Below, piece by piece: positions 6,199-35,712 of a stretch of 64,000 nucleotides of DNA. How positions within the stretch are numbered: position 1 is the stretch's first letter; the number at the start of each line of letters is the position of its first letter. The stretch covers positions 1 to 64,000 of the forward strand of contig NZ_BCNY01000008.1 of NCBI RefSeq assembly GCF_001602375.1. The letters run 5' to 3'. Below the pieces are notes generated by a model. That model was not told where the DNA came from and did no database searches. It was given only the letters and a program-made list of their open reading frames with translations. A program made the position numbers and the translations under genes. This stretch comes from Methanoculleus horonobensis (GTDB taxonomy: Archaea > Halobacteriota > Methanomicrobia > Methanomicrobiales > Methanoculleaceae).

Positions 6199-8502
6199 GT
6201 GAGTTGGAAAGTCGTGCCCGGCAACCCCCTGGATAGCCCCTGGATAAAAGAACGGTATGAGCGCCTCTACGGGACGTTCAGGAATTCACAGTTCACAACA
6301 AAGGATGCAGCCCGAGAACTGGGAGGAGAGGATGAACGGACCGTGAGGGTCTTCTTCTCTGAAATGAACCGGGCGGGGCTGATTGAGAAAGAGAAGGATC
6401 CTGAAGACAGACGGCGAGTCCGTTATCGGTTCCTTCCGGCAGCGGAGTCTCTCAACTACGAAGTATCACTCCCGGGCGGCCCTAGATGCCGGCGCATCAG
6501 GCCGCCTGCATCCACAGGCCGAACACCCGCCAGCGACCTTCTTGATAACTTCGATGAGTTCATTGATGCTCTCACCCATCAGGCCGAGATCTTTGACCTG
6601 ATGGCTGCATTCCGGGTCAGGACACTCGAGGACCTTCACGACTTCTTCTTCCTTCTGACCCTCGGGAAGATCATGAACCTCGTCGAGGGTTCCGGCTACG
6701 AGGTGGATATCACCGCTGATGATCTCCTGGAGGGAGGATCCGATCCGCTGGAGGAACTGATCGAGGTTGCGACAGAGGAGAGGCTGCTCACCGGGTTCCG
6801 GTCTGCCTGGAACCGTGAGGAACTCCAGGCGTTCAGTTCCCGGATGCGTCAGCGGCTTGCCAGCCGGGCCGGGCCAGAGTTTGCTCCGGATTCATTTCTG
6901 GAAGATGATCTCCCCGCCTTCATGGATCTGTTTCTCTCAACCGGGAGATATGATCTGGATGAATACTTCGATGTTGACCTGTTCCTGCATCTCTATGCTA
7001 CCTGCTACCCCATCATCCGGGATGCCCTGCCGCATGCCCCTCCTGAAGTCCTGGATCTTCTCGTCCGGCTGGTCAATCCCCGGCCCGGGGAGAATGTCTG
7101 TGATCCTGCGGGGTGTGACTTTATTCCGCTGCTCCGGGCTTACCAGCATGTGGAGGAGCTGGAGGGGGAAGATCCGGCAGCATCGCTGTTTTACGGGCAG
7201 ATCTTTGCCAGTGACCCGGAACTCCCGCCGGGAAGATCGCTATGGTACAGGCTGTATGCCTGCTGTCGGGTCCTCTGCAGCACCCCGGACGCCACCGTAG
7301 GCGTGACGACCGGGAATACTCTGCTCACCGCACCATTCAGGAGATTAACCGACCTTCAAGAGACGGCGTTTGACTGTGTCATCTCGACACCGCCGTGGGA
7401 TCTTGGCGGTTACGGGAAGGAACGACTGAAGAAGACGGATGCCTGGTGGAGGCGGTTCCCATGGGGTGTTCCGTCGGGGAGAAGTGCTGACTGGGCGTTT
7501 GTGCAGGTTGCCGTCTCGATGGCAGGAGACGGGGGGCGAGTGGGTGTGGTCGTCGACCGGTCCGCACTGAACCGCGAGGGCGAGGACGAGAGGATTCGAT
7601 CTGCGCTCATCGAGGAGAACCTTATTGAATGCGCTGTTCTCCTTCCAGAGCAGATCTATACAAAGACGCAGTTCCAGACCTGCAATGATCAGTGCGCCAT
7701 CCTCCTCCTGCGAAAGGGACAGCGGCTGCAGGCTGATCCTCCCGAACCGGGAACAATCCTCTTCATCAATGCACAGGCACTGCATGAGAACCGGGTTGAC
7801 GGATCACCGCTGCAGAAGTTGACGGAGAACGCCATCGACGAGATCCTGTTGGTATATGAACGATCCGTCGAGGGGGAACATTTCAGCCGACGGGTGGCGC
7901 ACGATGAGATCCGTGCCAACGGGAGTTCGCTTGATCCGGAACGCTACGTTCCTGCCGAGGATGGTCTGGACTATGAATGTGCAATGCTCCGGAACCTCGT
8001 CCTGGACGCTGCATGGGGCATCAGTAGCGGTTCGGTGACCGGGCAACGGGTGCGGGTGGTTCGTGCACGGGATATCGATCCCGACGGGGAGATCCTCTCT
8101 TCCTCCATATCCCGGGAAACCATCGACCCCGCCACGCCCGACGGGGCACGCCTCGAAAAGGGTGATGTTCTGATATCATTCTGGGGTGCCGTGCCCACAA
8201 AGATCGCGATGTATGAAGGGATCCCCACCACCATCTACCCCCACCGCGAACTTCTGCGGCTCAGGCCCGATCCCCGGAGGGTGCTGGCTCCTTATCTTCT
8301 CAGCCTGCTCAGGATTCTCAAAGACACCCGGCACTTCCGGAGCAACGACAGAGATTCTCTCTTAGAGGAGGTTCTTGACCTGGCGATCGTCGTCCCGCCG
8401 CACTCGCGGCAGGCAGAGATCCGGAAGACCCTGGCGAATAACCCGGGCATGCAGTCGTTCATCGCCGGACTTCTGACGGCGGCAAACCGTGAGAGCGAGT
8501 AG
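6199..8502 (+). CDS. wHTH - N6-adenine methylase-like - TRD-like hybrid protein
   Basis: 767 residues from a GTG start. Residues 1-85 look like a winged helix (FTTKDAARELGGEDERTVRV then MNRAGLIEKEKDPEDRRRVRY). Residues about 230-500 resemble HsdM-type methylases: the SAM-motif position reads ENVCDPAGCDFIPLL (about 294), and the catalytic motif reads ISTPPWDLGG (about 396) where NPPF/NPPY is usual. From about 610 the tail (VVRARDIDPDGEI, LEKGDVLISFWG, VVPPHSRQAEI) resembles the target-recognition part of type I S subunits. No nuclease or translocase partner is adjacent. It may be a solitary modification enzyme or an inactive, DNA-binding relative. The methylase fold is fairly sure; activity is open. 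Confidence 0.7.
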   Translation: MSWKVVPGNPLDSPWIKERYERLYGTFRNSQFTTKDAARELGGEDERTVRVFFSEMNRAGLIEKEKDPEDRRRVRYRFLPAAESLNYEVSLPGGPRCRRIRPPASTGRTPASDLLDNFDEFIDALTHQAEIFDLMAAFRVRTLEDLHDFFFLLTLGKIMNLVEGSGYEVDITADDLLEGGSDPLEELIEVATEERLLTGFRSAWNREELQAFSSRMRQRLASRAGPEFAPDSFLEDDLPAFMDLFLSTGRYDLDEYFDVDLFLHLYATCYPIIRDALPHAPPEVLDLLVRLVNPRPGENVCDPAGCDFIPLLRAYQHVEELEGEDPAASLFYGQIFASDPELPPGRSLWYRLYACCRVLCSTPDATVGVTTGNTLLTAPFRRLTDLQETAFDCVISTPPWDLGGYGKERLKKTDAWWRRFPWGVPSGRSADWAFVQVAVSMAGDGGRVGVVVDRSALNREGEDERIRSALIEENLIECAVLLPEQIYTKTQFQTCNDQCAILLLRKGQRLQADPPEPGTILFINAQALHENRVDGSPLQKLTENAIDEILLVYERSVEGEHFSRRVAHDEIRANGSSLDPERYVPAEDGLDYECAMLRNLVLDAAWGISSGSVTGQRVRVVRARDIDPDGEILSSSISRETIDPATPDGARLEKGDVLISFWGAVPTKIAMYEGIPTTIYPHRELLRLRPDPRRVLAPYLLSLLRILKDTRHFRSNDRDSLLEEVLDLAIVVPPHSRQAEIRKTLANNPGMQSFIAGLLTAANRESE

Positions 8503-8528
8503 GCTGGCTCTCTAAAAAAGAGGGTGCG

Positions 8529-9173
8529 TCAGGCCTCGTCTGGCCGGGCTCTACGTCCAGCTGGAGAGGAGTTGCATCCTCTGCCGGCATCTATCCCGCT
8601 ACAGACCCGTGTCTCCCGGACGACCCGCCACATGGCGGCCTGAAGGGTTGAGGCAGAGCCGGTGGGTTCGCTGGCTGCCTGGAGAAATGACATGACGAGC
8701 GCACCCGGGACAAGCGCGTTGAGTGCAACGTTATGTGGCGGCAGGTATGACTCCTCCCAGGTGCTCTGTGCAAAGACACCGAGGAACACCAGTACACCCT
8801 CCGCGTCACGCATGTAGAGCGCCATGACGGCCTTTGCCTCGCAGAATATCTCCAGTTCATCCATTCTCTGCCGCAGAGCACCCTCTGCATCCACAAGCGT
8901 GATCCCGGGGGAATCGAGAAGTTCGATCTCCGGTTCGGGGGCGTACGGGACGACGAAGTATTCGTGGCAGGCCCCTGGTGCCTCCCCTAGGTGACTGCGG
9001 AGCACCGGCCCCGCTTCGGTCACGGTGAGGATGCCCGTAACCTCAGTGTACTGCTTGGTATACTGATGGATCTCCTCCGCTTCCTGCTGCTCAGTGCAGT
9101 ACTGCACCATCTGCGCCAGAGAGGGGAATGTCCTGAACCTCCACCGGGTTACTGAGGAATTGATCAGCCTCAT
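8529..9173 (-). CDS. Hypothetical protein, third gene of SDH_sah operon
   Basis: A 214-residue protein I do not recognise. ATG 9173 is preceded by GGAGGT. The central region (EAKAVMALYMRDAEGVLVFLG) alternates hydrophobic strands in a way that loosely recalls GAF or Roadblock-type sensor folds, but there is no decisive motif. The C-terminus is Cys/Gly/Arg-rich (GIDAGRGCNSSPAGRRARPDEA). It ends 26 bases from the convergent wHTH-methylase gene, with a short inverted repeat between them. It is probably co-transcribed with the ClpP-like gene 75 bases upstream. Confidence 0.55.
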   Translation of the reverse strand: MRLINSSVTRWRFRTFPSLAQMVQYCTEQQEAEEIHQYTKQYTEVTGILTVTEAGPVLRSHLGEAPGACHEYFVVPYAPEPEIELLDSPGITLVDAEGALRQRMDELEIFCEAKAVMALYMRDAEGVLVFLGVFAQSTWEESYLPPHNVALNALVPGALVMSFLQAASEPTGSASTLQAAMWRVVRETRVCSGIDAGRGCNSSPAGRRARPDEA

Positions 9174-9248
9174 ACGGTACCTCCGATGAGGGAGTCCGCC
9201 TGTGCATAGGCCCGGGCCGGGATCTGCGTATGCGTATGTTTCATCTGC

Positions 9249-10187
9249 TCACTCCCGTTCAGACAGGTCCTTCTTCATCACCGAGAGGCGATGGATCTTC
9301 CAGACGAGGTCATGCATCTCCCCCTCGAGCAGTTTGACGGGCAGGCCGAGCTCGCGTGCTTCATTGTAGTGAATGCAGAACCCATGGTCTATATACCCGT
9401 AGACCAGTTTCTCCGCAATCGCATTCACCTCCTCGGGAGTACGCTCTGCCTTCTGCATCCGTAAGGTGCGAACCAGGTACTCTTTAGAAATCTTCGGGGC
9501 GGCGATGATTCTTCCCAGGCTCAGGGGGAAGTGAAGGCGCTCTAGCAGGCCTTCGGCAAGATGCTCGTCACCATACTGGAACTCGCTCCGGATCAGCTGG
9601 AACGTCTCGATGATGTTGAGACACGAGAGCCGCTTGCCATCATCCGCAAATGGGTTGTCCAGAATCTGCGGATCCAGCGGGCCGAGTTCGGCCACCGGTG
9701 TCATGGAGATCGTGTCGGCAGCGCAGGCAATGAGCATTGCAGCGCTCTTCGCCCACCGGGGAACGATGACATTGAGCGATTCGTGGCCGATTGACCGGAA
9801 GAGGCAGGCGAGGTTGAACGCTGCCTCGCTGTACCCTCCGCTGGAGAAGAGGATCACGTTGAATCGGCCGTCGCAGTCATCCCCGATCGCCCGGAGTTCG
9901 TCGTAGACATCGTCGACTGTTCTCGTGTCGAGCACTTTTGTATAGAGGACATAGTACGTCTGGCCGCCGGAAAGGGTCTTCAGGGCCTGCAGTGTATCCT
10001 GGATCTCCGCATCCAGTTTCTCGGCGATTCTGTCGGCTTTCTGTCGCTCCCGTTCCCTCCATGCCGTTCTGCTCGACTCTCTCAGCGAGGCCGTGTCTTC
10101 CCCGCCATCGGTGGAGAGCAGCCCCATCATCTGCAGAACGCTCCCCGTACATCTCCCCTTTGTGCCGGTCACAGGCTGTTCGGTCAT
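9249..10187 (-). CDS. SDH_sah / ClpP-crotonase fold serine hydrolase
   Basis: 312 residues. The region VILFSSGGYSEAAFNLACLF corresponds to the Gly-rich oxyanion segment of the ClpP/SppA fold. WAKSAAMLIACAADTISMTP carries the candidate nucleophile Ser, and ELGPLDPQI is the hallmark of the serine dehydrogenase proteinase (SDH_sah) family. A helical stretch of about 80 residues precedes the domain, with no obvious transmembrane helix. It is likely a cytosolic or membrane-associated peptidase; the family name comes from a bacterial enzyme whose activity may not apply here. ATG 10187 is chosen because GGAGGAG lies just upstream. Confidence 0.75.
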   Translation of the reverse strand: MTEQPVTGTKGRCTGSVLQMMGLLSTDGGEDTASLRESSRTAWRERERQKADRIAEKLDAEIQDTLQALKTLSGGQTYYVLYTKVLDTRTVDDVYDELRAIGDDCDGRFNVILFSSGGYSEAAFNLACLFRSIGHESLNVIVPRWAKSAAMLIACAADTISMTPVAELGPLDPQILDNPFADDGKRLSCLNIIETFQLIRSEFQYGDEHLAEGLLERLHFPLSLGRIIAAPKISKEYLVRTLRMQKAERTPEEVNAIAEKLVYGYIDHGFCIHYNEARELGLPVKLLEGEMHDLVWKIHRLSVMKKDLSERE

Positions 10188-10208
10188 CAAGTCTCCTCCG
10201 CCCCCCTG

Positions 10209-12012: not shown

Positions 12013-14604
12013 CTACGAAATCATATCTGCCTGTTTGAGTGCATCATTCAATCGTGTAAGGAGCACTAAAGTGGCGTTTTTGTCAACCTCACTCTCGTCT
12101 GTGTAACTGTTCGTGTAGATGCATGCTGGACATCCAGTTTCACAACGGCAGTCTTTGATCAAGCGGTAGGACATCGTGAGGATCTCACAGAGTAACTCAG
12201 CAACCTTCTCCGATAGACCAATGCCCCCCTCATAGTTGTCATATATAAACACTGTTGGCTTTCCAGTTACTGCCGCCTGGTATTCAGCGTGGACGCTGAC
12301 ATCATGTGCATCACAGAGGATAAAATATGGTAATACGGTCGGAATCACGTTTTCCAACCCTCGCAGGCCTTTTTCGAATTCTTCAACACTGGTAAGACCC
12401 ATTTCTGGGACAGAGAATGGAATTGTAAACCAAGTCGCTTTAGTTTCAAACTGAAGTGGCGGGAGATCTAACGGTTCTTCACCTATAACCTTCTCATGCC
12501 TAATGATTCGGTAGCAGGTGTACGTCTCACTGATCCTGACAGTACCAGTACAAAGATCAATGGAATTGAGTTGAGCCTGAGAGCCAGGATGAATCACACT
12601 GAGATTGACCCCTTTAACCGCCTTGGTATAGTAATCGACGTCTTCCTGCCGGATTTTAATTATCATGTTCTTAAGGTCAAAGTCTTCAACGAGATGGGGT
12701 TGGCTATTGTGAAGGAAAACTGCGCCCGGATGGGCCTCACGAAATGCCTGAGTGAAATCGAGCCTTTCAAGCAGTCGGTTGCCGTACATAAGCCGGAAAG
12801 AGTCCGACGATATTGCGTTCAACTTGATAGCGCCATGGATCCGGGTTTCACCATCTGCGTAAACCCATCCAGACTCAGTACTCGCAAGGTCGCCCTGTGC
12901 ATTTAATTCTTCAAGCACCTCTTCAAGATTGCCCTCAAAAAATTGATTGTCATGATGTACGTCAAGAGCGATCTCCTGTGCAGCACAGAGGAGATGGTTC
13001 GCTCGAATATACTTGTTTTCAAGGTCCAAGACGGCATTTTCGTGTGGACGCGTAAAGAAGTCTTCTGGGTGACGAATGAAGTGCTGCTCGAGCGGATTGC
13101 TGAAGGCAACCATGATGGCGACAGACTCAGTTGCTCGCCTCCCCGCCCGGCCTGCCTGCTGCCAAGTAGACATCATTGTGCCAGGGTAGCCTGAAAGGAT
13201 GACGCAGTCAAGTGACCCAATGTCAATGCCAAGCTCAAGAGCGTTCGTTGAGACAATCCCAAGGAGATCGCCATCCTTGATCTCCTGCTCTATTTGCAGT
13301 CGATCCTCGGGAAGATACCCCCCTCGATATGACTTCACTCGCAGAGCTAAACGAGGATAGTCATCTTGAAGCGCTTCTCTTGTCCACAGTGCAATAAGTT
13401 CAACCAGCTGACGTGAACGAGTGAAACATAGTGTTTGTACCTCCATTGTGACACACGCCGTGAGGATTTTTGCCGTCTCGTTATGCGTGGACAGCGTAAC
13501 CGTGTCTCCTTTCGCAGTTTCATTTTCAGGGTTATAGAGGACAAAAAACTTTGAACCTCGGGGTGATCCGTCACGACTGATATGCACAACTGGATGACCA
13601 ATGAGCTTCTCAGCAAACTCCTCTGGATTTGCAATGGTAGCAGACGATAGGATGAACTGTGGCTTTGCACCGTAAAGGGCACAGATCCTGCGCAGCCTTC
13701 GGACAATAAGGGCGACATTCGATCCAAAAACACCGCGATAGGTATGTGCCTCATCGATGACGATGCACTTAAGATGCGTAAAGAAGGAGGCCCATTTGTC
13801 ATGGCTCCCTAACATGTAGTGCAGCATATAAGGGTTCGTCAGGATTATTTTCGAACTACAACGAATACGACCGCGCTCATCACCTGGCGTATCCCCGTCA
13901 TAGCGACTGGCACTTACAACAATCCGTGTCGCCTGTTCAAATTCCTTTAGTGTTTTGTATTGATCATTAGCCAGCGCTTTGATAGGATAGATATAGAGGG
14001 CAGTCGCGCGCGGATGTTTCAGTAGCATTTCAAAGATTGGGATATTGAATGCCAGTGTTTTCCCACTCGCAGTAGGCGTCGTGAGGATGATGTGCTCCCC
14101 CTCACGGATTCGTTGGATTGCATCACATTGATGGGTGTAAAGTCGGATGTTCTGCTGTCGCAGGTACACTGTAAGGGGTTCAGGAAGTGGAGGAGATACA
14201 TCTCCATAGAGAGGCTCGTGTGGAGGGATCTTTTCAATGTGGGCGATCTTATCTTTGAACTGCTTATTATTCAGAAGATACCGCAATACCTTCTCTGCTT
14301 TTTTTAGGCGTGGATTAAGTGGCGACGAGAAGGATGTGGGAGCAGTTGCATCCTCCGGCTTCTCCAATTCAGTAATCCGCTTGGAAGGGTCTTCACAGGG
14401 ATAACAACGTTTGGGTAACTTGGAAACCATTCCAGATTCCAGTAGCACCTCATCCCGTTTCAAAACGGCTTCGGAGAACGTTGGATCAAGTTGAAGAGCA
14501 CATTCAAAGCAACGAAGAGCTGCATCGACTTCCCCCGCCTTGAGTTTTTCCAGCCCAAACCTGTACCAGGTGTCGCTCTCCTCATGTGTATCACGGATCT
14601 TCAT
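12013..14604 (-). CDS. SF2 DEAH helicase with DUF1998-type C-terminus (MrfA/YprA-like)
   Basis: 863 residues. A TPR-like N-terminus (DTWYRFGLEKLKAGEVDAAL, about 10-55) precedes the helicase core. Motif I is TTPTASGKTLAF (about 172), motif II VIDEAH, motif III SSATIANP and motif VI QQAGRAGRRATE. The C-terminus has clustered cysteines CRCETGCPACIYTNS, diagnostic of the DUF1998/MrfA zinc region. Relatives are DNA repair helicases, and DUF1998 helicases also occur in DISARM-type defence. The TPR extension is unusual. It is first in a same-strand run with the SF1 helicase and the XseA-like gene but has its own GAGGAAG ribosome-binding site and a 79-base gap, so it may be transcribed separately. 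Confidence 0.87.
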   Translation of the reverse strand: MKIRDTHEESDTWYRFGLEKLKAGEVDAALRCFECALQLDPTFSEAVLKRDEVLLESGMVSKLPKRCYPCEDPSKRITELEKPEDATAPTSFSSPLNPRLKKAEKVLRYLLNNKQFKDKIAHIEKIPPHEPLYGDVSPPLPEPLTVYLRQQNIRLYTHQCDAIQRIREGEHIILTTPTASGKTLAFNIPIFEMLLKHPRATALYIYPIKALANDQYKTLKEFEQATRIVVSASRYDGDTPGDERGRIRCSSKIILTNPYMLHYMLGSHDKWASFFTHLKCIVIDEAHTYRGVFGSNVALIVRRLRRICALYGAKPQFILSSATIANPEEFAEKLIGHPVVHISRDGSPRGSKFFVLYNPENETAKGDTVTLSTHNETAKILTACVTMEVQTLCFTRSRQLVELIALWTREALQDDYPRLALRVKSYRGGYLPEDRLQIEQEIKDGDLLGIVSTNALELGIDIGSLDCVILSGYPGTMMSTWQQAGRAGRRATESVAIMVAFSNPLEQHFIRHPEDFFTRPHENAVLDLENKYIRANHLLCAAQEIALDVHHDNQFFEGNLEEVLEELNAQGDLASTESGWVYADGETRIHGAIKLNAISSDSFRLMYGNRLLERLDFTQAFREAHPGAVFLHNSQPHLVEDFDLKNMIIKIRQEDVDYYTKAVKGVNLSVIHPGSQAQLNSIDLCTGTVRISETYTCYRIIRHEKVIGEEPLDLPPLQFETKATWFTIPFSVPEMGLTSVEEFEKGLRGLENVIPTVLPYFILCDAHDVSVHAEYQAAVTGKPTVFIYDNYEGGIGLSEKVAELLCEILTMSYRLIKDCRCETGCPACIYTNSYTDESEVDKNATLVLLTRLNDALKQADMIS

Positions 14605-14683: not shown

Positions 14684-16270
14684 TCAATCATCGGAATAGA
14701 CCAATATCTGCTGGTATGACACACTCTTCAGTTCATCCTCAAGGCCGGCATCGAACGCAACCTTCGGTTTACTCTTGTAGATGAAAGTGAGTTCATTTGT
14801 GGCTCGGAGATGTTCGAGAATAGTTCGCATCTCTTCATACATTGGATACCGGCCCGATCCTGTGAGAGTCACCCATGCCCGGGCTCGGGTCAACGCGACG
14901 AAGAGGCTGTTTCGCAAGGGAATGCTCTCATCATTTCGGGCAATGGTATCAAGTCCGAGGATATAGACCATGTTCCCTTCATTTCCCTTTACCCTATTGA
15001 TGCCCGACACCGTGACGCAGTTTGTCTCAGAGAATGTGTCCGGGTTTCGACCGAGATCAAGTTTGTTTTTCCCGGAAGCTGACGAGATATATGTGTCAAT
15101 ATCACGATCCATGAGCTCTTTTGCGATGCTGCGTACGTCATTGTTCGACCTGCTGTTCAGGGATACCACCAGAATATCTTCAGGACAGAGCCCATAGAGG
15201 GTTAGATCACGGTGTATTGAGCGCGCTATGAAAGAAAATTCTTCCTCCCGCCTATCAAAGAGTTGGAGATCAACGAGAGGCCCCTCCCAGAGATCAGGAA
15301 TGATATTTGCCGCATACTCTTTTGGACGGGAGATCGTTACTCGATGGTTACTCTTAAACTCCCCTTGCACATCGTAACCGAGTGCGTTCCACTCGCCCTT
15401 CGTGGTCGGACCGGCAAGCATGCCTTCACGGAAATAGAGACCCATCCCTATTGCATGTGCAGCCATGAGGATAGGGGCGGGCGTCCGGTAGCATTTGCGC
15501 ATGATAACACTCTTACGAAGAGTGAAATCCTCTCCAAATATCTCTTTTGATGACGGGATCTTGACGCTACTGGTATTCTGGTATTCATCGTATGCCCAAA
15601 TTAACCGCCTCTTCTTCGGGTTTTCACAGTCAACTGGGCGCAGGGATTGATATGCCATCCAGAAGAAAGGCTGTTTCCCCTGATAAAGAAGGTCTTCTTG
15701 GTCGATAACGAAGTCTTGGCCTTCATCAATGAGTATAGCATCGAAGAGGGGGTCTACAGGGAAGTTTTTACTCTCGTGTAACTGTAGAAAACTTTTGCAT
15801 GCCTTTGCAAACACTTCATTTGGGAGTAAGCGCTGATTTTGATCCTCCTTGAGCTGATCGGGAGAAAAGAAGTCGATATCATAATGGTTACAGAGGGTTC
15901 GATAGAAGCCCATCTTGCCAGCGCTCCCCCATGCGTGAAGTACCTTTAGCGTGCTATTGGGGTCATGCGGATCAAAATCACCACCATTCATCCGGCAGTA
16001 AAACCGCACCCAATACTCGATGTATTCGTAGAGAGAACGCGTGAAAAAGGTATATACGATCTGGAGGTCCGGCCACTGACAATGCATGTACGCTGCCTTC
16101 TGGCAGAGGATGTGGGTCTTCCCTGAACCTGCTATGCCGCGAAACCTCTGTGGCTCGGATACTGCTTCTTTGGCTAATTGTTCAACTTCAAGGTCGCCTT
16201 GAATAAATTGTGTTTTTAATTTTTTCAATGCCTCTGTTCGAGATACACTGTTTTGTTCTTCAATGTTCAC
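14684..16270 (-). CDS. SF1 (UvrD/Rep-like) helicase
   Basis: 528 residues from GTG 16270, chosen because GGAGGTTGAGA precedes it; ATG 16309 is possible. Motif I is FRGIAGSGKTHILCQKAAY, motif II ILIDEGQDF (D-E-x-Q form), motif IV-like LIWAYDEYQNT, and motifs V-VI read VSGINRVKGNEGNMVYILGL then FVALTRARAWVTLTG. This is the compact SF1 layout without a nuclease domain, as seen in many defence-linked helicases. It should unwind or translocate on DNA using ATP. It lies between a DUF1998-type SF2 helicase and an exonuclease VII-like gene, and the three may form one DNA-processing system. Confidence 0.85.
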   Translation of the reverse strand: MNIEEQNSVSRTEALKKLKTQFIQGDLEVEQLAKEAVSEPQRFRGIAGSGKTHILCQKAAYMHCQWPDLQIVYTFFTRSLYEYIEYWVRFYCRMNGGDFDPHDPNSTLKVLHAWGSAGKMGFYRTLCNHYDIDFFSPDQLKEDQNQRLLPNEVFAKACKSFLQLHESKNFPVDPLFDAILIDEGQDFVIDQEDLLYQGKQPFFWMAYQSLRPVDCENPKKRRLIWAYDEYQNTSSVKIPSSKEIFGEDFTLRKSVIMRKCYRTPAPILMAAHAIGMGLYFREGMLAGPTTKGEWNALGYDVQGEFKSNHRVTISRPKEYAANIIPDLWEGPLVDLQLFDRREEEFSFIARSIHRDLTLYGLCPEDILVVSLNSRSNNDVRSIAKELMDRDIDTYISSASGKNKLDLGRNPDTFSETNCVTVSGINRVKGNEGNMVYILGLDTIARNDESIPLRNSLFVALTRARAWVTLTGSGRYPMYEEMRTILEHLRATNELTFIYKSKPKVAFDAGLEDELKSVSYQQILVYSDD

Positions 16271-16835
16271 TCTCAACCTCCAGTGCTCTCTCCTTCGAGG
16301 GCGAGGCATACTCTCTCAGGAAAGACTCTCTGAAATATACTGATCTTAGTCCTAAGGTATTTTAGCCATTCGTTTGCTCCCTGATAGCCCCTCACAAGGC
16401 GATGTTCGGCAGCGCTCACACTCACCCAAACAAGCGTACCATGAGTTTTACGCCATCACTATGCAGGGAATAGTTCTTACTCTCGGAGCTCACAGAAGAC
16501 CATGTATGAGCCCTTCTCTAATTACAATAGCGGAAGATCGAAGGGGGTTACATCACTTCTAGCCAACACACAGACCGGCAGATTTTTTCCTCAACGATCT
16601 ACTGAGCAGTGCTGCGTGTATCCGCAGTTCCCTGCCTGTCAGTGAGGCCATATAGGCACCCAAGGATTCACAACCCCGGGGTGCCAATTGGACAAACGAA
16701 GTGAAACGACTATAAACAGCCAGTAAGGCAGTATACTGTGTTTTAGGCAAAAACACATGTGGGTACCTAAAATACCCAACTATTTATCCCTTCTTCAATT
16801 ACTTAATTTTTTAGTTTCAACGAACTAGATGAATT
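16271..16835. other. Intergenic region between XseA-like and SF1 helicase genes
   Basis: About 565 bases including the start region of the SF1 helicase. I see no gene, tRNA or clear repeat. The left end is AT-rich and follows the stop of the XseA-like gene. Confidence 0.35.
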
Positions 16836-18842
16836 CTATAGAAGAGTCATAACCCCAGCACCAATTCCAAGACCAAGAAGCATACTTACAATGGCGGCTA
16901 TGATTACCATCCGGTTCGATCCGCTCTCTGCCACCTGTCCCCGCAGTTCGTTCAAGGTTGCAGTCTGCTCTTCCACAACCCGTTGGCTCTCGGTGTGCTT
17001 TTGCTCAGCAGCACTGAGCCGGTCTCTATAGATACTCTCAACATCCTGCCGGATATCCGCTGTACTCTTCCCCGCTACTTCGATCTGTCGCTGGAGTTCT
17101 AGGATCGTTTTGGATGACTGTTCGCTCGCTCTTTGCATCAGATCTAACTGTTGCTTGAGGTCCGTGACCCTACCCTCATAACCCTTCTCGATGTCCTTCC
17201 GAAGATCGTCAGTACTCTTGTTGGAACTTTCCATCTGCTTCTGAAGGTCCTTGATCAACTCAGCCTGCCGCTCCTCGGTCTTCTGTGCATCGGTGCGCTG
17301 CTGCTCAACTGCTTTATTACCATTTTCAACCTGCTGTTGCAGGTCTTTGAGGCGCTCCTCGTAGGTCTTCTCAAGATCCTTCCGAACCTCTTCTGCACTT
17401 CTGCCAGCCTCTTTGATCTGTCCCTGGAGGTCTTTAATAATCTCGACTTGTTGTCCCTCGGCTTTCTTCGCATCTTCAAGCTGCTGCTCGAGGCGTTTGA
17501 CCATCTCATTGTACTGCTTCTGGACCTCATTGAGTGCTGCCGCTTTCGACCGCGACAGCTCCTCGAACGTCTCCTCCACCATCGCTTTGAGCCAGGTACC
17601 AAAGGCAGTAGGCGTGGTGAATGCATGGCAGGCAACCCGCTCGAGGAAGGGGTGGTCAACCTCGTGTCCAAGAGCGGTTAAAACAGGCGTCTGCATCGCC
17701 ACTACTGTAGCAGCCAGATTGAGATCGTCAAAGACTTCCAGACCCGACCCCCCACCGCGGATCAGGGCAATATAATCGTAGCCTTCTGAATCGAGCTGGC
17801 ATAACAGGGTTATGATGGCCCCAGGTGAAGAGAACTTCCCGCGATGTGTGGTCACATCGTAGTGATCCAGTGCAGTGCCAACTGCTGAGGTAACATCTTG
17901 ATCAACAATCCCCGTCTCTCCATAGATGGCTGCAATCTTTGGCTCAGTTCCTTGAACAATGTGAGATTTTATATTCCAGCGAGGATCGGGCAACGCCTTC
18001 TGCTGGTGCTGTTCAAGCACTTCCTGTCGTCGGAGGACTTCTGGATCAACCGTCCGCTCCTCCTGGCAGACCACTCCCGTGGCAACAAATGTGACCTGAA
18101 TACCGCCGTACTTGTTGATCTTCCTTGTGAGGTATCCCTTCAGCGTACAGATCCCATCCGGAGTGAGTTGATCGCGAATCGAGGGAGTCACTTTGAGAGT
18201 TAAACTCTGATCGCCGATTTCGTCCTTCAGCTCATCGTAGTAGTATCCGCTGTATATCTTGGGCCCCTTCATTCCAAAGATGCCCCGGACGGCGACTGTT
18301 TTAAGCTCTTGAGGGAAAACGATAGCTGCATTATAGGCATTAATCAGTCCTCCCGGGCTGAACGGAAGGCTTCCCACTTCAGAACGAAGCACATTCATTC
18401 CAGTCTCATTCGATGTGCCATTCGTCGTGGTTGATGCGGGCAGGAGAGAGGTCTCGGTTTTGGTCTCAGGAGAAGGAGTTGCGCCCATCACCATCGCTTT
18501 GGCAGGGGGCACACCCACAGATACATTAATGCCCTGTTTCGGGCGGATTGGTGGAGGGAGTATTCCTTTAGTTTGACAGTATTCCTGAATAACTTCCGTG
18601 AATGCCGGCCCATACTTCCTCTGCTTATATGGACCGACGCCAAAGATGTGAATAAAATCATCCAGTGTTTGAGGATAGTACATCGCCATCTGGATGAGGC
18701 TCTCTTCTTTGAAGATCTGATATGGTTCTTTTCTGAATTTGCGTGCCAGTGTTTCGCGGACCCCAAGGAGTCGATCAAAGAGTTCGAGGTCATGTGTGGC
18801 TCTGCTGTCAGTTTTGCCGGGGTCTGTTGATAATGAGTCCAT
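16836..18842 (-). CDS. Membrane-anchored exonuclease VII large-subunit homologue with HRDC domain
   Basis: 668 residues. Residues about 20-95 form an HRDC-like domain (ETLARKFRKEPYQIFKEESL, FIHIFGVGPYKQRKYG). About 160-265 matches the OB-fold of XseA. The exonuclease VII core follows: YDYIALIRGGGSGLEVFDDL, then VLTALGHEVDHPFLERVA and AFTTPTAFGTWL. Residues about 430-635 are coiled coil containing three diverged tandem repeats of roughly 50 residues (pattern I-x-DLQ-x-Q ... RKDxEKxYExRLxDL). A hydrophobic anchor (MVIIAAIVSMLLGLGIGAGVMTLL) ends the protein. Normal XseA has neither HRDC nor anchor and needs XseB, which is not visible here. It may degrade DNA at the membrane, possibly against invaders. 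Confidence 0.85.
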   Translation of the reverse strand: MDSLSTDPGKTDSRATHDLELFDRLLGVRETLARKFRKEPYQIFKEESLIQMAMYYPQTLDDFIHIFGVGPYKQRKYGPAFTEVIQEYCQTKGILPPPIRPKQGINVSVGVPPAKAMVMGATPSPETKTETSLLPASTTTNGTSNETGMNVLRSEVGSLPFSPGGLINAYNAAIVFPQELKTVAVRGIFGMKGPKIYSGYYYDELKDEIGDQSLTLKVTPSIRDQLTPDGICTLKGYLTRKINKYGGIQVTFVATGVVCQEERTVDPEVLRRQEVLEQHQQKALPDPRWNIKSHIVQGTEPKIAAIYGETGIVDQDVTSAVGTALDHYDVTTHRGKFSSPGAIITLLCQLDSEGYDYIALIRGGGSGLEVFDDLNLAATVVAMQTPVLTALGHEVDHPFLERVACHAFTTPTAFGTWLKAMVEETFEELSRSKAAALNEVQKQYNEMVKRLEQQLEDAKKAEGQQVEIIKDLQGQIKEAGRSAEEVRKDLEKTYEERLKDLQQQVENGNKAVEQQRTDAQKTEERQAELIKDLQKQMESSNKSTDDLRKDIEKGYEGRVTDLKQQLDLMQRASEQSSKTILELQRQIEVAGKSTADIRQDVESIYRDRLSAAEQKHTESQRVVEEQTATLNELRGQVAESGSNRMVIIAAIVSMLLGLGIGAGVMTLL

Positions 18843-19279
18843 GATGTTGCACCTGCAGTAAATAAGCCTTGTATGGCGTTATTTGTGAGAGCGGATTGAT
18901 AACAGGTTCATTTTAAACATTTAAGCAACAAAAAGATGTCGAAATTTCTCCCCAATTCCCTTGAATATTTCAATGATCTCGAAGACCTCCATAGTCCCTT
19001 TAGGAAGTCCTCATTTTTTTGCTGCACATAACATTATATGCCGCACAGGGTCTGATGCGCGTATAATCTGTCACGATCCGCTGGCCTAGGGCGGCGGCTC
19101 GGCCCTCAATTTTGGCCTTCCGTCCTTGGCGTACGGAGGGGGAGGGGTGCCGGCTCCGGTCCCAAAAAACATCCTAACAATAAATCTGCATATGCAGAAA
19201 ATACGGAGATAACTGCCTGGGAGCGGGGGCAAGTCCCCCTGAAGAACTAAGAGCCGCAAAAACTAAGATCTGGGCCCTT
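18843..19279. other. Intergenic region with a 14-bp palindrome
   Basis: About 440 bases without a convincing gene. TCTGCATATGCAGA at 19185-19198 is a perfect palindrome. The region also has a GC-rich patch (19080-19170) set in AT-rich flanks, suggesting a junction between segments of different origin. Confidence 0.4.
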
Positions 19280-20258: not shown

Positions 20259-23200
20259 ATGCTACGACTGGAAGATATTAAGAAAGATGCGGCCGTCAAC
20301 GGTATCGAGCCGGGGCAAGTCGTGCAGATCGTCACGACCGAACCTGTTGGTGAGAACGCGCTGACGGTCTATTACAGGACTGTCAATGGTCAGTTGAAAG
20401 AGCAGATGCTTTTCCGCTCCAGCGAAGCCTCTCTCTCCCTCGCGGAGGCGGGTAGGCCGTGGGCGTTCGACGCACCCGGGGAAGAGTTCAAACTTGCCGC
20501 CGAGGCCTACCGGATCGACCTCGCCTACCTCTTCGACCCGATGATGGCGGTGCATACCTCAAACGTCGAACCGCTCCCTCACCAGATCACGGCGGTCTAT
20601 CAGTCAATGCTCCCCAGGCAGCCGTTGCGGTTTGTTCTGGCCGACGATCCCGGTGCCGGTAAGACGATCATGGCCGGGCTTCTGATCCGCGAACTCCTGA
20701 TGCGGGCAGATGCCGAACGGATCCTGATCGTTGCTCCGGGGAGTCTCGTGGAGCAGTGGCAGGACGAGATGTATGAAAAGTTCGGCCTTGAGTTCACTAT
20801 CTTCTCCCGCGACCTCGCGGAACAATCGCTCGGCGGCAACCCGTTCGACGACCACCCTCTCTTAATTGCCCGGCTCGATCAGCTCTCGCGGAACGAGGAA
20901 CTGCAGGAGAAACTCGCACACACCCAATGGGACCTTGTGGTGGTGGACGAGGCCCACAAGATGTCGGCGACGTACTACGGGTCGAAGGTGAACCGGACAC
21001 AGCGGTTCAGGCTCGGAGAACTGCTCGGCGCTCATACCCGCCACCTCCTTCTGATGACGGCGACGCCGCACAACGGAAAGGAGGAGGACTTCCAGCTCTT
21101 CCTCTCCCTGCTGGACTCAGACCGGTTCTATGGTAAGTTCAGGGACGGCGCTCACAAGGTGGATGTCTCGGACCTGATGCGCCGGATGGTGAAGGAGGAC
21201 CTCCTGAAGTTCGACGGGACACCCCTCTTCCCCGAGCGGATCGCGGAATCGGTCACATATACACTCTCCGATGCAGAGGCCGCCCTCTACCAGCAGGTCA
21301 CCCAGTACGTCCGGGAGGAGATGAACAAGGCCGACCGGATCGAGAACAACCAGCGGAAAGGTGCGGTCGGGTTTGCCCTCACCGGGCTGCAGCGGCGACT
21401 GGCCTCGAGCCCGGAGGCGATCTATCAGTCATTGAAACGCCGGCGCGAGCGGCTGAAGCGCCGCGTGGAGGAGATGAAGATCGACTCACGCGGCCAGGCG
21501 CTCGCCGAGACGCTCTTTGACGTCCGGACGAACGGCGACGTGTGGGACGCCGACGAAGAGATGGCGGCCGACGAGTACGAGGAGTACGAGGAGGAAGTCG
21601 TCGACCAGGCTACCGCCTCGCGGACAATCCACGAACTGGAGGCCGAGATTCGGATCCTCGAAGGGCTGGAGGAACGGGCACGACAGGTTGTTCGGTCAGG
21701 TCACGACCGGAAGTGGGAGGAACTCTCCCGGCTCCTGCAGGACACGCCCCAGATGCATGAGGAGAGCGGGCGGCAGCGGAAGCTGATCATCTTCACCGAG
21801 TACAAGGACACCCTCCGGTATCTGGCAGCGCGGATCCGCGGGCTACTCGGGTCAGAGGTGGCGGTGGTCACCATCGATGGAAGCGACCGGCGGGAGGAGC
21901 AGCGGAAGAAGCAGGAGATGTTCAGGAGCGACCCGGTGGTGCGGATCCTGATCGCCACGGATGCGGCCGGGGAGGGCGTGAACCTCCAGAATGCCCACCT
22001 GATGGTGAACTATGACCTGCCGTGGAACCCCAACCGGCTGGAGCAGCGGTTCGGCCGGATCCATCGTATCGGGCAGACCGAGGTCTGCCGCCTCTGGAAC
22101 CTGGTGGCGGCCGAGACAAGGGAGGGCGATGTTTACCAGCGGCTGCTCCAGAAGCTGGAGACCGAGCGGAAGGCCCTCGGTGGGCGGATCTTCGACATCC
22201 TCGGGGAGGTCTTTGATGAGCGGAGCCTGCGGGATCTGTTGATCGAAGCGATCCGATATGGCGACGACCCCGAGGTGCGGGCGCGGCTCCTGCGACGGGT
22301 CGAGGGCGCCCTCGATACCGAACGCCTGCAAGAACTCATGCGGCAGAACGCTCTCTGTGAGGTGGTGATGGACGAGGGGAGGCTGTTCGCGCTCAAGGCC
22401 GATATGGAGAAGGCGGAGGCGAGGAAACTGCAGCCCTACTTCATCAGGGCGTTCTTCACCCGGGCGTTTGAGGAGGTGGGGGGCGAACTGCGGGCGCGTG
22501 AGCCGGGAAGGTGGGAGATCACCCATGTGCCTGCGGCGATCCGCGAGCGTGACCGGCAGATCTCGGGGCGTGACCGCCGGTACATGCAACCGGTGCTGAA
22601 CCGCTACGAGCGGGTCTGCTTCGAGAAGGAGTACGTCCGGCTGCTCGATCGCGTGGGGGCGCCGATGGCGGCGCTGATCCACCCTGGCCACCCTCTGATG
22701 CAGGCGGCGACCGATCTCGTGCTGGAGAGGCACCAGCCGAAGCTCCGGCAAGGTGCGGTGCTGGTTGACCCAAACGATCCAGGGACGACGCCGCGGGTAC
22801 TCTTCATCATCGATCACTCGGTACGAGATGGGAATGATGGGAGTCGCACGGTCTCGCGGCGGATGCAGTTCGTGGCGATCGATGACGGAGGAAGGGCGGA
22901 GAACGCTGGCTGGGCTCCTCATCTCGACCTTCAACCGATCGGCGAGGAGGAGCGGGAGCTGGTTGCCGACGTCCTCACTTCACCGTGGATCAACACCGAC
23001 CTCGAACGACTGGCCCTCGCCCATGCGACCGAACGGATCGTGCCGGAGCACTTTGCCGAGGTGAAGGAGCGGCGGGAACAGACGGCCGACCGGACGATGG
23101 CGGCGGTGCAGGCCCGGCTGGTGAAGGAGATCAACTTCTGGCAGGACCGTGTCATCAGGCTGCAGGACGACCAACGGGCCGGAAAAGATGTACGGATGAA

Positions 23201-23774
23201 CCTCGAGAACGTCCGCCGGACTGTGGACGATCTTACGACACGGCTCGCGCGACGGCAGCGCGAGCTGGCGGCGATGCGGCACGTCATCTCGGCGACGCCG
23301 GTGATCGCCGGTGGTGCACTGGTGATCCCGGCGGGGCTGCTTGCGGCTCGCCGGGGTGAGGAGACGGGTGTTGATGCCGCGGCCCGGAAGCACGTCGAGG
23401 TGGTGGCGATGCGGGCGGTGATGGATGCCGAGCGTGCCCTCGGCCACGAGGTGATCGATGTCTCGGCGGAGAAGTGCGGCTGGGACGTCACCGCACATGC
23501 CCCTGCGGGGGACGGGCGAGCGCCAATGACACGCCACATCGAGGTGAAAGGCCGGGCGAAGGGCCAGACCACTATCACAGTCTCTCGTAACGAGATCCTC
23601 TATGGGCTCAATCAGGCAGACAAGTTCGTGCTCGCGGTGGTGCTGGTGGACGGTGAGGAGTACGAAGGGCCGTTCTACATCCGGGAACCGTTCGACCGCG
23701 AACCGGGCTGGGCGGTGACGAGCATGAACCTCGATCTCGCCGCTCTCCTTAATCGGGCGGAACAACCACAGTAA
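20259..23774 (+). CDS. SNF2-family helicase with DUF3883 domain (DrmD-like), defence operon gene 1
   Basis: 1171 residues. Motif I is [15 protein letters not shown] (about 130), motif II VVDEAH (about 228) and motif [18 protein letters not shown]. The helicase C half holds [37 protein letters not shown] and [14 protein letters not shown] (about 507-607). The tail (about 1045-1140, [20 protein letters not shown]) is a DUF3883 nuclease-like fold. This layout matches the large SNF2 helicases of DISARM (DrmD) and related systems. It is followed after 13 bases by a DUF1156 methylase and then DUF262 and DUF499 genes, forming one operon. Its role is probably ATP-driven DNA translocation or remodelling in anti-virus defence. 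Confidence 0.92.
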
Positions 23775-23787
23775 TATAGGAGCTTCT

Positions 23788-26679
23788 ATGGCTGTCAGGA
23801 TACCAAAAAAACTGATCGAGGTGGCGTTGCCGCTTGACGAGATCAACGCCGCATCGGTGCGGGAGAAGTCAATCCGCCACGGCCACCCGTCGACCCTCCA
23901 CCTCTGGTGGGCACGGCGACCGCTTGCGGCGGCACGGGCGGTGCTGTTTGCACAACTCGTGAATGATCCGGGCTACGAGCGGGAGCTCGGCCGGGGCGTG
24001 AACAGGGAGAAGGCCGAGGCGGAGCGGAAACGGCTTTTTGAACTGATAAAGAAACTCGTCCTCTGGGAGAACACCACGAACGAGGCGGTGCTCGCGGAGG
24101 CGCGGGAGGAGATCTGGAAGAGCTGGCGGGAAACCTGCGCTCTGAACAAGAACCACCCGCAGGCGAAGGAGCTCTTCAATCCAGATAAGTTGCCGGCCTT
24201 TCATGATCCGTTCGCCGGCGGCGGGGCGATCCCGCTTGAAGCCCAGAGGCTCGGCCTCGAGGCCTGGGCGTCCGACCTGAACCCGGTGGCGGTGCTGATC
24301 AACAAGGCGATGATCGAGATCCCACCGAAGTTTGCGGGGAGACCGCCGGTGAACCCGGAGAGCCGGAAGCAGAAGCGGGTCGGCACCGAGTGGAAGGGCG
24401 CTGCGGGGCTCGCGGAGGATGTCCGGTATTATGGGAAGTGGATGCGCGACGAGGCCGAGAAACGGATCGGCCACCTCTACCCGAAGGTGCGGGTCACAGC
24501 GGAGATGGCAGAGGAGCGGCCGGATTTGAGGGAATACATCGGGGAGGATCTGACGGTGATCGCGTGGCTCTGGGCGCGGACGGTGAAGAGCCCAAATCCG
24601 GCGTATAAGGAGGTGGAGGTGCCGCTCGCTTCGACGTTCTGGCTCTCGACGAAGAAGGGGAAGGAAGCATATATTGAGCCAATAGTTGAAGGAAAATCCT
24701 ACCGGTTCTCAGTGAGAGTCGGAAAACCGAAGAATTCAGATCAGATCGGAAATGGGACAAAATTGTCCCGAGGAAGTTTTGGATGTCTCCTCTCGAGCAC
24801 TCCGATGAGTTACTCTTACATCAATGATGAGGCGAACGCGGGTAGAATGGGTGCCCATATGATGGCCATCGTCGCAGAGGGGAGAAGGGGCCGGATCTAT
24901 CTCTCCCCAACAGTTGAGATGGAGAACATTGCCAGAACGTCGATGACGTCATGGAAGCCGGAAACACCGTGTAGGGGGACGTTTGCGAGCAACGCACAGG
25001 GGCGGCGCTATGGATTCCATACATTCGGAGACTACTTCACCCCCCGCCAGCTCGTCGCCCTCACCATCTTCTCCGACCTTGTGGGTGAGGCGCAGGCGCA
25101 GGTTCTCCGCGACGCCCTCGCCGCTGGGATACCCGACGATGGCCGAGGGCTGGAGACGGGGGGCGACAGGGCCACGGCATATGCGGATGCGGTGGCGGTG
25201 TATCTGGGATTAGGAGTAAGTCGTCTCAGCGATATTTGCAATGCGCTATGTAGATGGGAGGTGTCAAAAACCCAAGTCCGCAACCTCTTTGGCCGACAAG
25301 CGATTCCCATGGTTTGGGATTTTGCTGAACCAAACTTATTTGCGGACGCTGCAGGAGATTATGGTGTCAGTCTAAAAACACTATCAAAAGTGATTGACCG
25401 CTTTTCCTGCAACAATCAGGGATTTGGCCTCCAATCAGATGCTTCGAATCAAAAGGTATCCCAAAATAATATCGTCTCCACAGATCCCCCGTACTACGAC
25501 AACATCTGCTATTCTGACCTCTCTGACTTCTTCTATGTCTGGCTCCGCCGATCCTTAAAATCAATTCTACCTTCCATTTTCGTCACGATGGCCGTCCCAA
25601 AGGCCGAGGAACTGGTAGCGACACCTTACCGCCATGGATCGGAAGAATTAGCTGAGGCCTTCTTCATGAACGGGATGACCGAGGCCATGCGCCGCCTTGC
25701 TGAACAGGTTCATCCTGCCCTCCCGGTCACGATCTACTACGCCTTCAAGCAGTCCGAGACAGCTGGGAACGACACCACTTCCCCCGGTTGGGAATCCTTC
25801 CTTGAAGCAGTGTTGAAGGCTGGCTTCGCCGTCACCGGAACATGGCCGATGCGTACCGAACTCGGAAACCGCATGGTAGGGATGGACGCAAATGCCCTCG
25901 CCTCTTCAGTCGTCCTCGTCTGCCGCCGGCGCGACCCCGCCGCCCCCACCGTCTCCCGCAAAGAGTTCCTCCGCGAACTGAAGCGGGCACTCCCCGAGGC
26001 GCTCGACGAGATGACCGCCTCCTCGATCGCCCCCGTCGACCTTGCCCAGGCCTCGATCGGTCCCGGGATGGGAATCTTCTCAAAGTACTCCGCTGTCCTT
26101 GAGGCAGACGGGACGCCGATGTCGGTCCACGACGCCCTTGTCCTCATCAACCGCGAACTCGACGAATACTTCTCCGACGCCGGAGGCGACGTCGACGCCG
26201 ACACCCGCTTCTGCCTCGGCTGGTTCCAGGAGAACGGCTGGCAAGAGGGGAAGTTCGGCGAGGCCGACGTCCTTGCCCGCGCCCGGGGCACCACCGTCGA
26301 CGGCGTCCGGGAGGCCGGCGTCGTCGAGGCCGGCGGCGGGAAGGTCCGGCTCATGAGGTGGTCGGAGTATCCCGGCGACTGGTCGCCGGAGGCCGACAGC
26401 CGGACGCCCGTCTGGGAGGCGCTCCACCACCTCATCCGCGTTCACCAGTGCGGCGGCGGCGAATCCGAGGCCGCCGCCCTCCTCGCCCGGATGCCCGGCC
26501 GGGCGGCGGCGATCCGGCAGCTCGCTTACCGGCTCTACACCCTCTGCGAGCGGAAAGGCTGGGCCGAGGATGCCCGCCCGTACAACGAACTGATCACCTC
26601 GTGGGGAGCCGTCGAGGCACAGACGCCCACCGTGATCGAGAAAGCACCACAAAAGACACTATCCTCCTACGGAGGCTGA
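23788..26679 (+). CDS. DUF1156 DNA adenine methyltransferase, defence operon gene 2
   Basis: 963 residues. The N-terminus ([40 protein letters not shown]) is the DUF1156 signature. The SAM-binding motif is [20 protein letters not shown] (about 139-158) and the catalytic motif is [15 protein letters not shown] (about 564). Such proteins modify host DNA so that a partner system can tell self from foreign. The middle (nt about 24,650-25,550) is AT-richer than the flanks, as if the target-recognition part had been exchanged. Spacing is 13 bases to the helicase and 3 bases to the next gene. Base specificity cannot be read from sequence; N6-adenine is the family expectation. Confidence 0.92.
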
Positions 26680-26682
26680 CGT

Positions 26683-28356
26683 ATGAAAAACCAGAAAGAG
26701 ACCATCCGAAAGATGGTCAGTTACCTCAATGATGAGGAATGGAACGGGGGGTTCTGGCTGCCGAACATCCAGCGCCCGTTCGTCTGGCGAGAAGACCAGA
26801 TCGAGCGCCTCTTTGACTCCATCATGCGGGAGTACCCAATCAGCACCCTCCTCGTATGGCGCACCAAATCGCGTATCCGCCGCCGGAAGTTCATCGATAA
26901 TTATAAAAATACCATCAGGCTTACCGACTTTTACGTTCCCGAAGACGACAAAACCAAACTCCTTGTCCTCGATGGCCAGCAGCGGCTCCAGAGCCTCTTC
27001 ATCGGCCTCAAGGGGAGTTATGAAAAGCGCGAACTCTACTTCGACGTCCTCAGCGGCGATCTTGTTGCACCCGAGGATATCCGTTACAAGTTCAAATTTC
27101 TGGATGCTGAAAAGGCCGCCTTCCCGTGGGTCAAGTTCAAGGAGATCGTCTTCATCAATGAACTCTCAACCAAGATCGCCAAATCGATCATCAGGAACGC
27201 CGGGAGGGAGTTGACTGAATCAGAAAAAGAGCGCGTTGAAGAGAATATAGCACTGGTTCAGATGCAGTTTGTCAACAGAGATCTGATCGTCTATCAGGAA
27301 CTTGACAGCGTCGATAACACTGACGCCTACCGGGAAGACGATGTCGTTGAGATCTTCATCCGTGCCAATTCTGGAGGAACACGCCTCGGCAAATCCGATC
27401 TCCTCTTCTCCCTCCTGACATCATCATGGGAGGATGCGGATGAGAGGATGGATGAACTGCTCGATGATATCAACCGTGTCGGCTACGACTTCACCCGTGA
27501 CTTTATCCTGAAGACGTGCCTGACGCTCCTCAACAAAGGGGCAGCATATGAAGTCAAAAAATTCCGTGACGAGCGCATTCGGCAAGAACTCATTGACAAG
27601 TGGGAGGGGATTTCTGCAGCCATCCGCGATGTGAGAGATTATCTCTACGGCAGAACCTTCATACGGACGGACAAGGCAATGCCGTCCTATCTCGTCCTCA
27701 TCCCGATCATCTACTTCCGCTACCACTTTCCCCAAAAATGGGGTGCAGTGCAGAACCTTGATGACTACCTCCTCCGGACACTCCTCAGCGGGGCGTTCAG
27801 CGGTACACCTGACAACATGATCGACCGGTGTGTAAAGGCGATCAGTTCCTCCGGCGAGTTTGATGTGAACGAGATCTTCGGTATCGTACGTGAAGACGGG
27901 CGTAGCCTCGAATTGGCGGAGAGCACCATTCTCGGGCAGTATTACGGGTCAAAGCAGAGTCATCTCATCTTCAACCTCTGGTACAGAGACTTCAACTACA
28001 TACCAGCATACGAAAACAATCTTCCTCAGGCTGATCACATCTTCCCGCAATCCCTCCTGAGAAAGGTTAAAAAAGTAAATCCGAGGACAGGAAGACAGGA
28101 TCTTCTCAGGTACTATCAGGAAGATCGGGACCAGATAGCCAACCTCATGCTCCTCACCGCAGAGGAGAACGGCTTTTCCGGAAAACGGGATATTCCGCCT
28201 AATGAATGGTTCGCAGAAAAGGATGAAGCCTACCTTGAGATGCACCTGATCCCGAAGAACCCCGATCTCTGGGAACTGGATAACTATGAGGCGTTCATCG
28301 AGGAGAGAAAGAGGCTTATCCTTGACAAATTCAGCCACATAATTCAGGGGGCATAA
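26683..28356 (+). CDS. DUF262 / HNH (GmrSD-like) protein, defence operon gene 3
   Basis: 557 residues. The N-terminal DUF262 domain shows LPNIQRPFVWREDQIERLFD, YPISTLLVW and the DGQQR motif (about residue 96). The C-terminal half has an HNH-type signature PQADHIFPQSLL (about 450) with DQIANLMLLTAEENGFSGK. This is the composition of GmrSD-type enzymes, which use NTP to cut DNA, often modified DNA. Here it sits within one operon between the DUF1156 methylase and the DUF499 ATPase. It is a likely nuclease effector of the array. Restriction-methylation logic suggests it acts on DNA lacking, or bearing the wrong, methylation; which one is unknown. Confidence 0.9.
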   Translation: MKNQKETIRKMVSYLNDEEWNGGFWLPNIQRPFVWREDQIERLFDSIMREYPISTLLVWRTKSRIRRRKFIDNYKNTIRLTDFYVPEDDKTKLLVLDGQQRLQSLFIGLKGSYEKRELYFDVLSGDLVAPEDIRYKFKFLDAEKAAFPWVKFKEIVFINELSTKIAKSIIRNAGRELTESEKERVEENIALVQMQFVNRDLIVYQELDSVDNTDAYREDDVVEIFIRANSGGTRLGKSDLLFSLLTSSWEDADERMDELLDDINRVGYDFTRDFILKTCLTLLNKGAAYEVKKFRDERIRQELIDKWEGISAAIRDVRDYLYGRTFIRTDKAMPSYLVLIPIIYFRYHFPQKWGAVQNLDDYLLRTLLSGAFSGTPDNMIDRCVKAISSSGEFDVNEIFGIVREDGRSLELAESTILGQYYGSKQSHLIFNLWYRDFNYIPAYENNLPQADHIFPQSLLRKVKKVNPRTGRQDLLRYYQEDRDQIANLMLLTAEENGFSGKRDIPPNEWFAEKDEAYLEMHLIPKNPDLWELDNYEAFIEERKRLILDKFSHIIQGA

Positions 28357-35155: not shown

Positions 35156-35712
35156 GCGGGCCCCCTCGTGGCGACCAGGTGATCCACGAGCCACTGCACG
35201 GGGTCGGCACCGGGAGGCATCGATAAGCCGTGTCGGGCCACCAGGTCATCGGCTGCGGTCGCCGCCACGTCCCCAAGGTCGTCGGACTCAAGGACTTCTC
35301 GGAGCGGTGAGAGTTCCTCCTCTGAGAGAGTTTGCAGTGCGGTGTCGAACTCTATTTTAGCCGTCTTGATGGCCTCGAACATTGCCACCTGCTCTTGCTG
35401 CCGGTGCTCCGCGAGGTGTTCCTCGACTTCCTTCTGCTGGCGCTCGGCTGCCCGACCCTGAATACCTGCTAGAAGTTCGTCGATCTCAGCAACCTCTGTG
35501 AGCAGGGAGGTCCGGCGAGCAGCAAGGTACGTTCCCACTGCGGCCTCGACTTCGGGGCTGATACCCGGGGCGTCAGGAGCCCCAGCAGCATCGCATACCG
35601 TTCGGATCAGGCCGCGGACGGCGGCATCTGTCCGGTTAACCCCGAGCGCCCTGCTCAGGTCTAGGATCTCCTGGGGTACCCTGATGTTGATCTGGGTGAG
35701 GGGGGTCGTCAT
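35152..35712 (-). CDS. RHH-like, coiled-coil DNA-binding protein upstream of MCM
   Basis: 186 residues. The N-terminus (LTQINIRVPQEILDLSRALG, NRTDAAVRGLIR) has the strand-helix-helix pattern of ribbon-helix-helix proteins. The middle is a Gln/Glu-rich coiled coil (QQKEVEEHLAEHRQQEQVAM). It is translationally coupled to MCM by ATGA and faces the repeat cluster at 35751-35946. It is a good candidate for the origin-binding or copy-control protein of the element. GGAGGGG precedes the start. Confidence 0.6.
   Translation of the reverse strand: MTTPLTQINIRVPQEILDLSRALGVNRTDAAVRGLIRTVCDAAGAPDAPGISPEVEAAVGTYLAARRTSLLTEVAEIDELLAGIQGRAAERQQKEVEEHLAEHRQQEQVAMFEAIKTAKIEFDTALQTLSEEELSPLREVLESDDLGDVAATAADDLVARHGLSMPPGADPVQWLVDHLVATRGPA

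Follow-up and report, generated by a model that had tools for sequence, protein, structure and literature searches.

Exonuclease VII (ExoVII) is a bacterial repair nuclease, familiar as a big soluble assembly of XseA and XseB. What, then, is an XseA-like protein doing in an archaeal genome with an HRDC domain at its front, a membrane helix at its end, and no xseB alongside? Such a protein, 668 amino acids (aa) long, is encoded at 16836..18842 on the minus strand of the window, the 64,000-nucleotide stretch of Methanoculleus horonobensis DNA analyzed here. To approach this question, we examined its domains, its relatives, and the genes around them.

Domain architecture of the window protein

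All 668 codons are open in frame, and AGGTG, a Shine-Dalgarno-like motif (18850..18854, minus strand), stands 7 nt ahead of the ATG. The order of HRDC domain, XseA core, coil, and terminal membrane helix given in a preliminary description of the locus is borne out by Pfam matches to the first two (8.8e-16 and 9.4e-24) and by a hydrophobic tail at residues 646 to 664; coordinates of the domains below are all on the minus strand. The HRDC domain (residues 19 to 85; 18588..18788; PF00570) scores 58.1 bits against a gathering threshold of 23.8 and matches the HRDC domain of Escherichia coli RecQ (1WUD, 1.2e-6). RecQ HRDCs (1WUD, TIGR01389) resemble it as domains of ~70 residues, with identity up to 51% in the order of the host, and bacterial RecQ HRDCs are ~40% identical to it. 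The 29 top-scoring HRDC domains retrieved from that order (33 to 52% identity) all lie at or near the C terminus of RecQ-like open reading frames, whereas in the window protein the domain is N terminal and fused to a nuclease, without helicase domains. DNA binding is established for certain RecQ-type HRDCs. A Ser/Thr/Pro-rich disordered linker follows (residues 98 to 157; 18372..18551; pLDDT < 50).

The AlphaFold model was built with 20 relatives as input, and the HRDC domain is poorly modeled because these have none. Of the three profiles that the preliminary description had named, Pfam recovered HRDC and Exonuc_VII_L (residues 340 to 549) but missed tRNA_anti_2, the OB fold, which appears in the model as a high-confidence beta-barrel at residues 183 to 261. 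The OB domain as a whole (residues 178 to 264; 18051..18311; pLDDT about 90) aligns to the N-terminal domain of the relatives. The ExoVII catalytic domain, an alpha/beta domain at residues 284 to 410 (17613..17993), is also confidently modeled, with pLDDT mostly >90, and the best match of the protein among solved structures is E. coli ExoVII (8TXR, 9.5e-15 by Foldseek). Through the 8TXR alignment, which sets the numbering, D316, R362, H393, and D396 correspond to E. coli D155, R205, H238, and D241, which we take to be the catalytic residues, the 8TXR entry itself being an H238A mutant. These four positions are conserved in all ordinary XseA proteins tested and across the relatives described below (n = 30: D in 29, R in 29, H in 30, and D/E in 29). 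Gordonia phage exonucleases and phrog_9454 share the XseA-type catalytic motif, the only part compared, but the match is weaker and partial. Among PADLOC models, none matched over the nuclease part; the matches were limited to DpdF over the HRDC domain and to the coil.

Beyond the core, a coiled-coil stalk (residues 411 to 645; 16908..17612) forms a single helix of ~230 residues in the model. It is built of about three units of 50 to 61 aa, and the internal repeats reported earlier are real: the coil matches itself at offsets of 50, 61, and 111 residues with 0.97 to 1.14 per residue, while the maximum over 300 shuffles preserving the heptad register was 0.39. In the model the helix runs on to the C terminus (residues 411 to 667), with no C-terminal beta-barrel, and its end is the membrane helix (residues 646 to 664; 16851..16907), assigned by hydrophobicity and by the alignment of relatives. 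This stretch has a Kyte-Doolittle mean of 2.47, is immediately preceded by an arginine, and leaves four residues to the C terminus.

The comparison with ordinary XseA (TIGR00237, Exonuc_VII_L, 8TXR) thus has two sides. Both have an OB fold, then a catalytic domain with the D-R-H-D residues, then a long helix; in ordinary XseA a C-terminal beta-barrel follows, whereas the window protein has a membrane helix instead. The earlier statement that ordinary XseA lacks both ends of the window protein holds for the HRDC domain and the membrane helix but not for the long helix after the core. The window protein scores 79 bits on the NCBIfam xseA model, below the cut-off of 180, and is therefore not an orthodox XseA. 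It also differs in having no xseB beside its gene. As the preliminary description noted, none lies nearby: the sole XseB of the genome is encoded on another contig (C11), beside an ordinary XseA of 416 aa (441 bits on the NCBIfam model) whose gene overlaps xseB by 17 bp at its 3' end. Since the genome has its own XseA-XseB pair, the window protein is an extra ExoVII-type protein, and because the genome has no XseB beyond that of the pair, we infer that the window protein is independent of XseB.

A clade of tailed XseA-like proteins

Is this architecture a single oddity? Relatives were sought with the core alone in plasmid and phage records, and 84,980 genomes were scanned for DNA encoding the motif RGGGxGLExF[DN]; one alignment (A2) was too diverse to yield peptide patterns. 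The genome scan gave 34 matches, of which 21 were true family members, 9 were flagellar FliF (recognized by eye), and 4 were spurious frames, the last two sets being discarded. A further 246 genomes from the phylum of Dyadobacter yielded three more members. The relatives belong to Flavobacteriaceae, Spirosomataceae, Bacteroidales, Chitinophagales, and other Bacteroidota, which make up most of the clade, with one Bacillota metagenome-assembled genome and plasmids of Thermus, Allomeiothermus, and Fusobacterium. No others appeared among 232 genomes of the host's class or, by the exact motif, among 393 of its phylum, and pattern and peptide scans found none in viral contigs.

A tree of 46 proteins, computed from the OB and catalytic domains, separates 30 tailed proteins, among them the window protein, from ordinary XseA (support 99/99). 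The nearest neighbors of the window protein in it (L108 and L068; identity at most 33%) join it with support of 92/85. Hence the earlier word "rebuilt," in hinting at a one-off, is not quite apt: the membrane tail defines a clade, and the HRDC domain alone is particular to the window copy. In alignment A5, all 21 proteins, the window protein included, have a hydrophobic helix within 9 residues of the C terminus, so that a tail unique to the window protein is rejected. A survey of homologs for the order HRDC, XseA, membrane helix, suggested earlier, therefore recovers the tail throughout A5 but finds the HRDC domain missing from the 29 remaining clade members; the HRDC-XseA fusion is so far a single instance. 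The A5 tail helices are usually preceded by K or R, which by the positive-inside rule would place the catalytic side in the cytosol, and the spacing between core and membrane ranges from 39 to 233 aa (n = 21), fitting a tether of variable length. Departures from this form are few: L036, which may be cut short, has no C-terminal membrane helix, the tail helix of L034 is weak, and that of L039 lies 103 residues before the C terminus. The structure and ancestry of the window protein are well supported.

The clade members tested score 48 to 91 bits on the NCBIfam xseA model, far below its cut-off of 180, and yet on plasmids most members are annotated "exodeoxyribonuclease VII large subunit," so public annotation hides the clade. 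No model of its own was found among the NCBIfam and PADLOC models scanned, and none of the papers searched describes a membrane XseA or an HRDC-XseA protein. The tailed clade is apparently a rare, undescribed family. In five Flavobacteriaceae loci (L048, L055, L058, L059, and L060), a conserved protein of 76 to 80 aa, of unassigned family, is encoded directly after the tailed xseA; in a sixth (L072) it lies ~1.6 kb off on the other strand.

Another group of XseA proteins ends in a membrane helix as well. On haloarchaeal plasmids (e.g., Haloarcula marismortui pNG600), an XseA core is followed by a short helix and a C-terminal membrane helix, with the gene directly before xseB (L114, 928-1980; L116, 2428-3480; L117, 2419-3903; L118, 2431-3483). 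Unlike the tailed clade, these proteins group with ordinary XseA in the tree and retain XseB, and the one tested scores 282 bits, above the NCBIfam cut-off. The haloarchaeal membrane tail is a separate gain from that of the clade. A Rhodococcus plasmid encodes an XseA-like protein of 329 residues (L112, 1264-2253) with a hydrophobic stretch at residues 259 to 277, perhaps another membrane-linked form.

Genes around the window copy and its relatives

Downstream of the window gene and on the same strand lie a UvrD-like helicase gene (14684-16309) and a gene for an MrfA-like helicase with MZB and N-terminal TPR domains (12013-14604). An obligate operon of XseA with these helicases was considered and rejected: two genomes of the same genus (L094 and L095) have both helicase genes but not XseA, so the pair is not a required partner. 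Plasmid relatives of the UvrD-like protein have a NERD domain, which the window's protein lacks. On the opposite side of the window gene is an Hma-type defense cluster (20259-31200, plus strand) with HmaA, a DUF1156 methylase, and a DUF499 ATPase, a GmrSD-like restriction enzyme gene being inserted between the last two. The HmaA match reaches 2043 bits, and this defense helicase is 1.4 kb from the window gene.

Two integrase-family genes on the minus strand (5014-5649 and 37320-38636) lie about 32 kb apart, with an MCM gene (33116-35194) and HTH genes between them. The GC content is 44 to 51% at 10 to 20 kb and ~60% around, and no att-like direct repeat was found at the island ends. The region between the integrase genes is probably an integrated mobile element. 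An N6 DNA methylase gene and, on the opposite strand, an SDH-type serine protease gene lie at 6199-10190. At 3024-4412 (plus strand), a putative lipoprotein (signal and lipobox-like N terminus) with endonuclease/exonuclease/phosphatase and lamin-tail domains is likely an extracellular nuclease.

Among the other clade members, recognized defense genes occur, by profile or annotation, near at least 8 of 29 loci, a raw count that is no more than suggestive of a link to defense. PDC-S26 adjoins XseA in L036 and L037, on differing sides. PD-T7-3, which gives phage protection (PMC9519451), adjoins it in L071. A complete type I restriction-modification operon begins 32 bp downstream of XseA in L054; HsdM is near in L067, HsdS and PtuA in L055, NACHT in L058, and annotated type I S and M genes in L035. 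Outside this count, L048 (weak HSDR_N) and L108 (cytosine methylase and Vsr, by eye only) are possible additions. In several loci of Flavobacteria the neighbors are instead SRAP and/or UmuC genes. Elsewhere, replication and mobility genes are nearby (TnsD/TniQ, Rep3, toprim primase, ParA, SSB), and four loci (L045, L068, L109, and L110) resemble plain chromosomal sites. No partner gene is conserved across the whole clade.

Possible roles of the tailed proteins

How could such a protein work? Its C-terminal helix may sit in the cell membrane as a tail anchor, leaving the catalytic part in the cytosol, and the coiled-coil stalk would keep the OB fold and nuclease core off the bilayer and probably dimerize the protein. 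The N-terminal RecQ-type HRDC domain, with the OB fold, may help to capture DNA, and XseA-type hydrolysis would proceed without XseB. The gene was presumably gained horizontally, as its sporadic distribution and the low-GC island with integrases suggest. Carried in this integrated mobile island, it would provide a nuclease that attacks single-stranded DNA or exposed DNA ends close to the membrane, as when DNA enters from phages, from plasmids, or by conjugation. We rank this role first and consider the whole reading, in which the island carries for genome defense a nuclease that is membrane tethered and independent of XseB, to be about an even bet. That such a nuclease meets incoming DNA at the membrane, as was proposed for this locus at the outset, is plausible: the defense genes at the 8 loci and the nearby Hma helicase are consistent with it, but the SRAP and Y-family polymerase neighbors offer another explanation.

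This explanation, which we rank second and hold to be rather unlikely, is a DNA repair nuclease of mobile elements that would trim damaged or protein-cross-linked single-stranded DNA in lesion bypass or transfer of the element, its tether holding it close to the machinery of conjugation or replication. UmuC and then SRAP lie directly upstream in L052, SRAP adjoins the gene in L044 and L076, and the Bacteroides ovatus plasmid (L036) has an S24 peptidase and a Y-family polymerase; the nearby SSB, toprim primase, ParA, and Rep genes fit too, as does the repair function of bacterial ExoVII. Most loci, however, lack such neighbors, which mobile elements of this kind commonly carry, and the window copy has Hma, GmrSD, and methylase genes in their place.

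Alternatively, the element might use the nuclease to degrade the incoming single-stranded DNA of its rivals at the membrane, shielding itself rather than the host. The plasmid and integrated-element locations, the membrane tail, and the ExoVII-type nuclease fold would suit such entry exclusion, but several chromosomal members have no recognizable element around them and no surface-exclusion gene pattern was found, and we consider it improbable. Still less credible is a dormant suicide nuclease, which a partner or the coil would keep inactive at the membrane until infection frees it to degrade host DNA. E. coli XseA is toxic when overproduced without XseB, and the adjacent PDC-S26 and PD-T7-3 genes could be sensors; the clade, however, shows no conserved regulator or antitoxin-like neighbor. 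Finally, it is very improbable that the protein is functionless, a degenerate or artifactual product in which an HRDC fragment became joined to a mobile XseA: the HRDC domain is seen once, and an internal ATG in the linker (M149), roughly where other members start, may be the true start, but the frame is open throughout, the HRDC domain is well conserved, the active site is intact, and the Shine-Dalgarno-like motif precedes the first ATG, with none clear before M149.

The defense reading, extended to the family, would make the tailed XseA-like proteins an undescribed class of single-gene, membrane-tethered single-stranded DNA nucleases, to which the archaeal copy added a RecQ HRDC for DNA capture, and ExoVII would have become membrane tethered on two or more occasions, in this clade and in the haloarchaeal plasmid XseA-XseB. 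We hold this broader proposal more tentatively, at somewhat short of even. A clade that lacks XseB and the end barrel and has its nuclease tied to the membrane points to the parts that ExoVII can do without, and the tailed proteins offer a small and easily tested system in which to ask if incoming DNA is degraded at the membrane.
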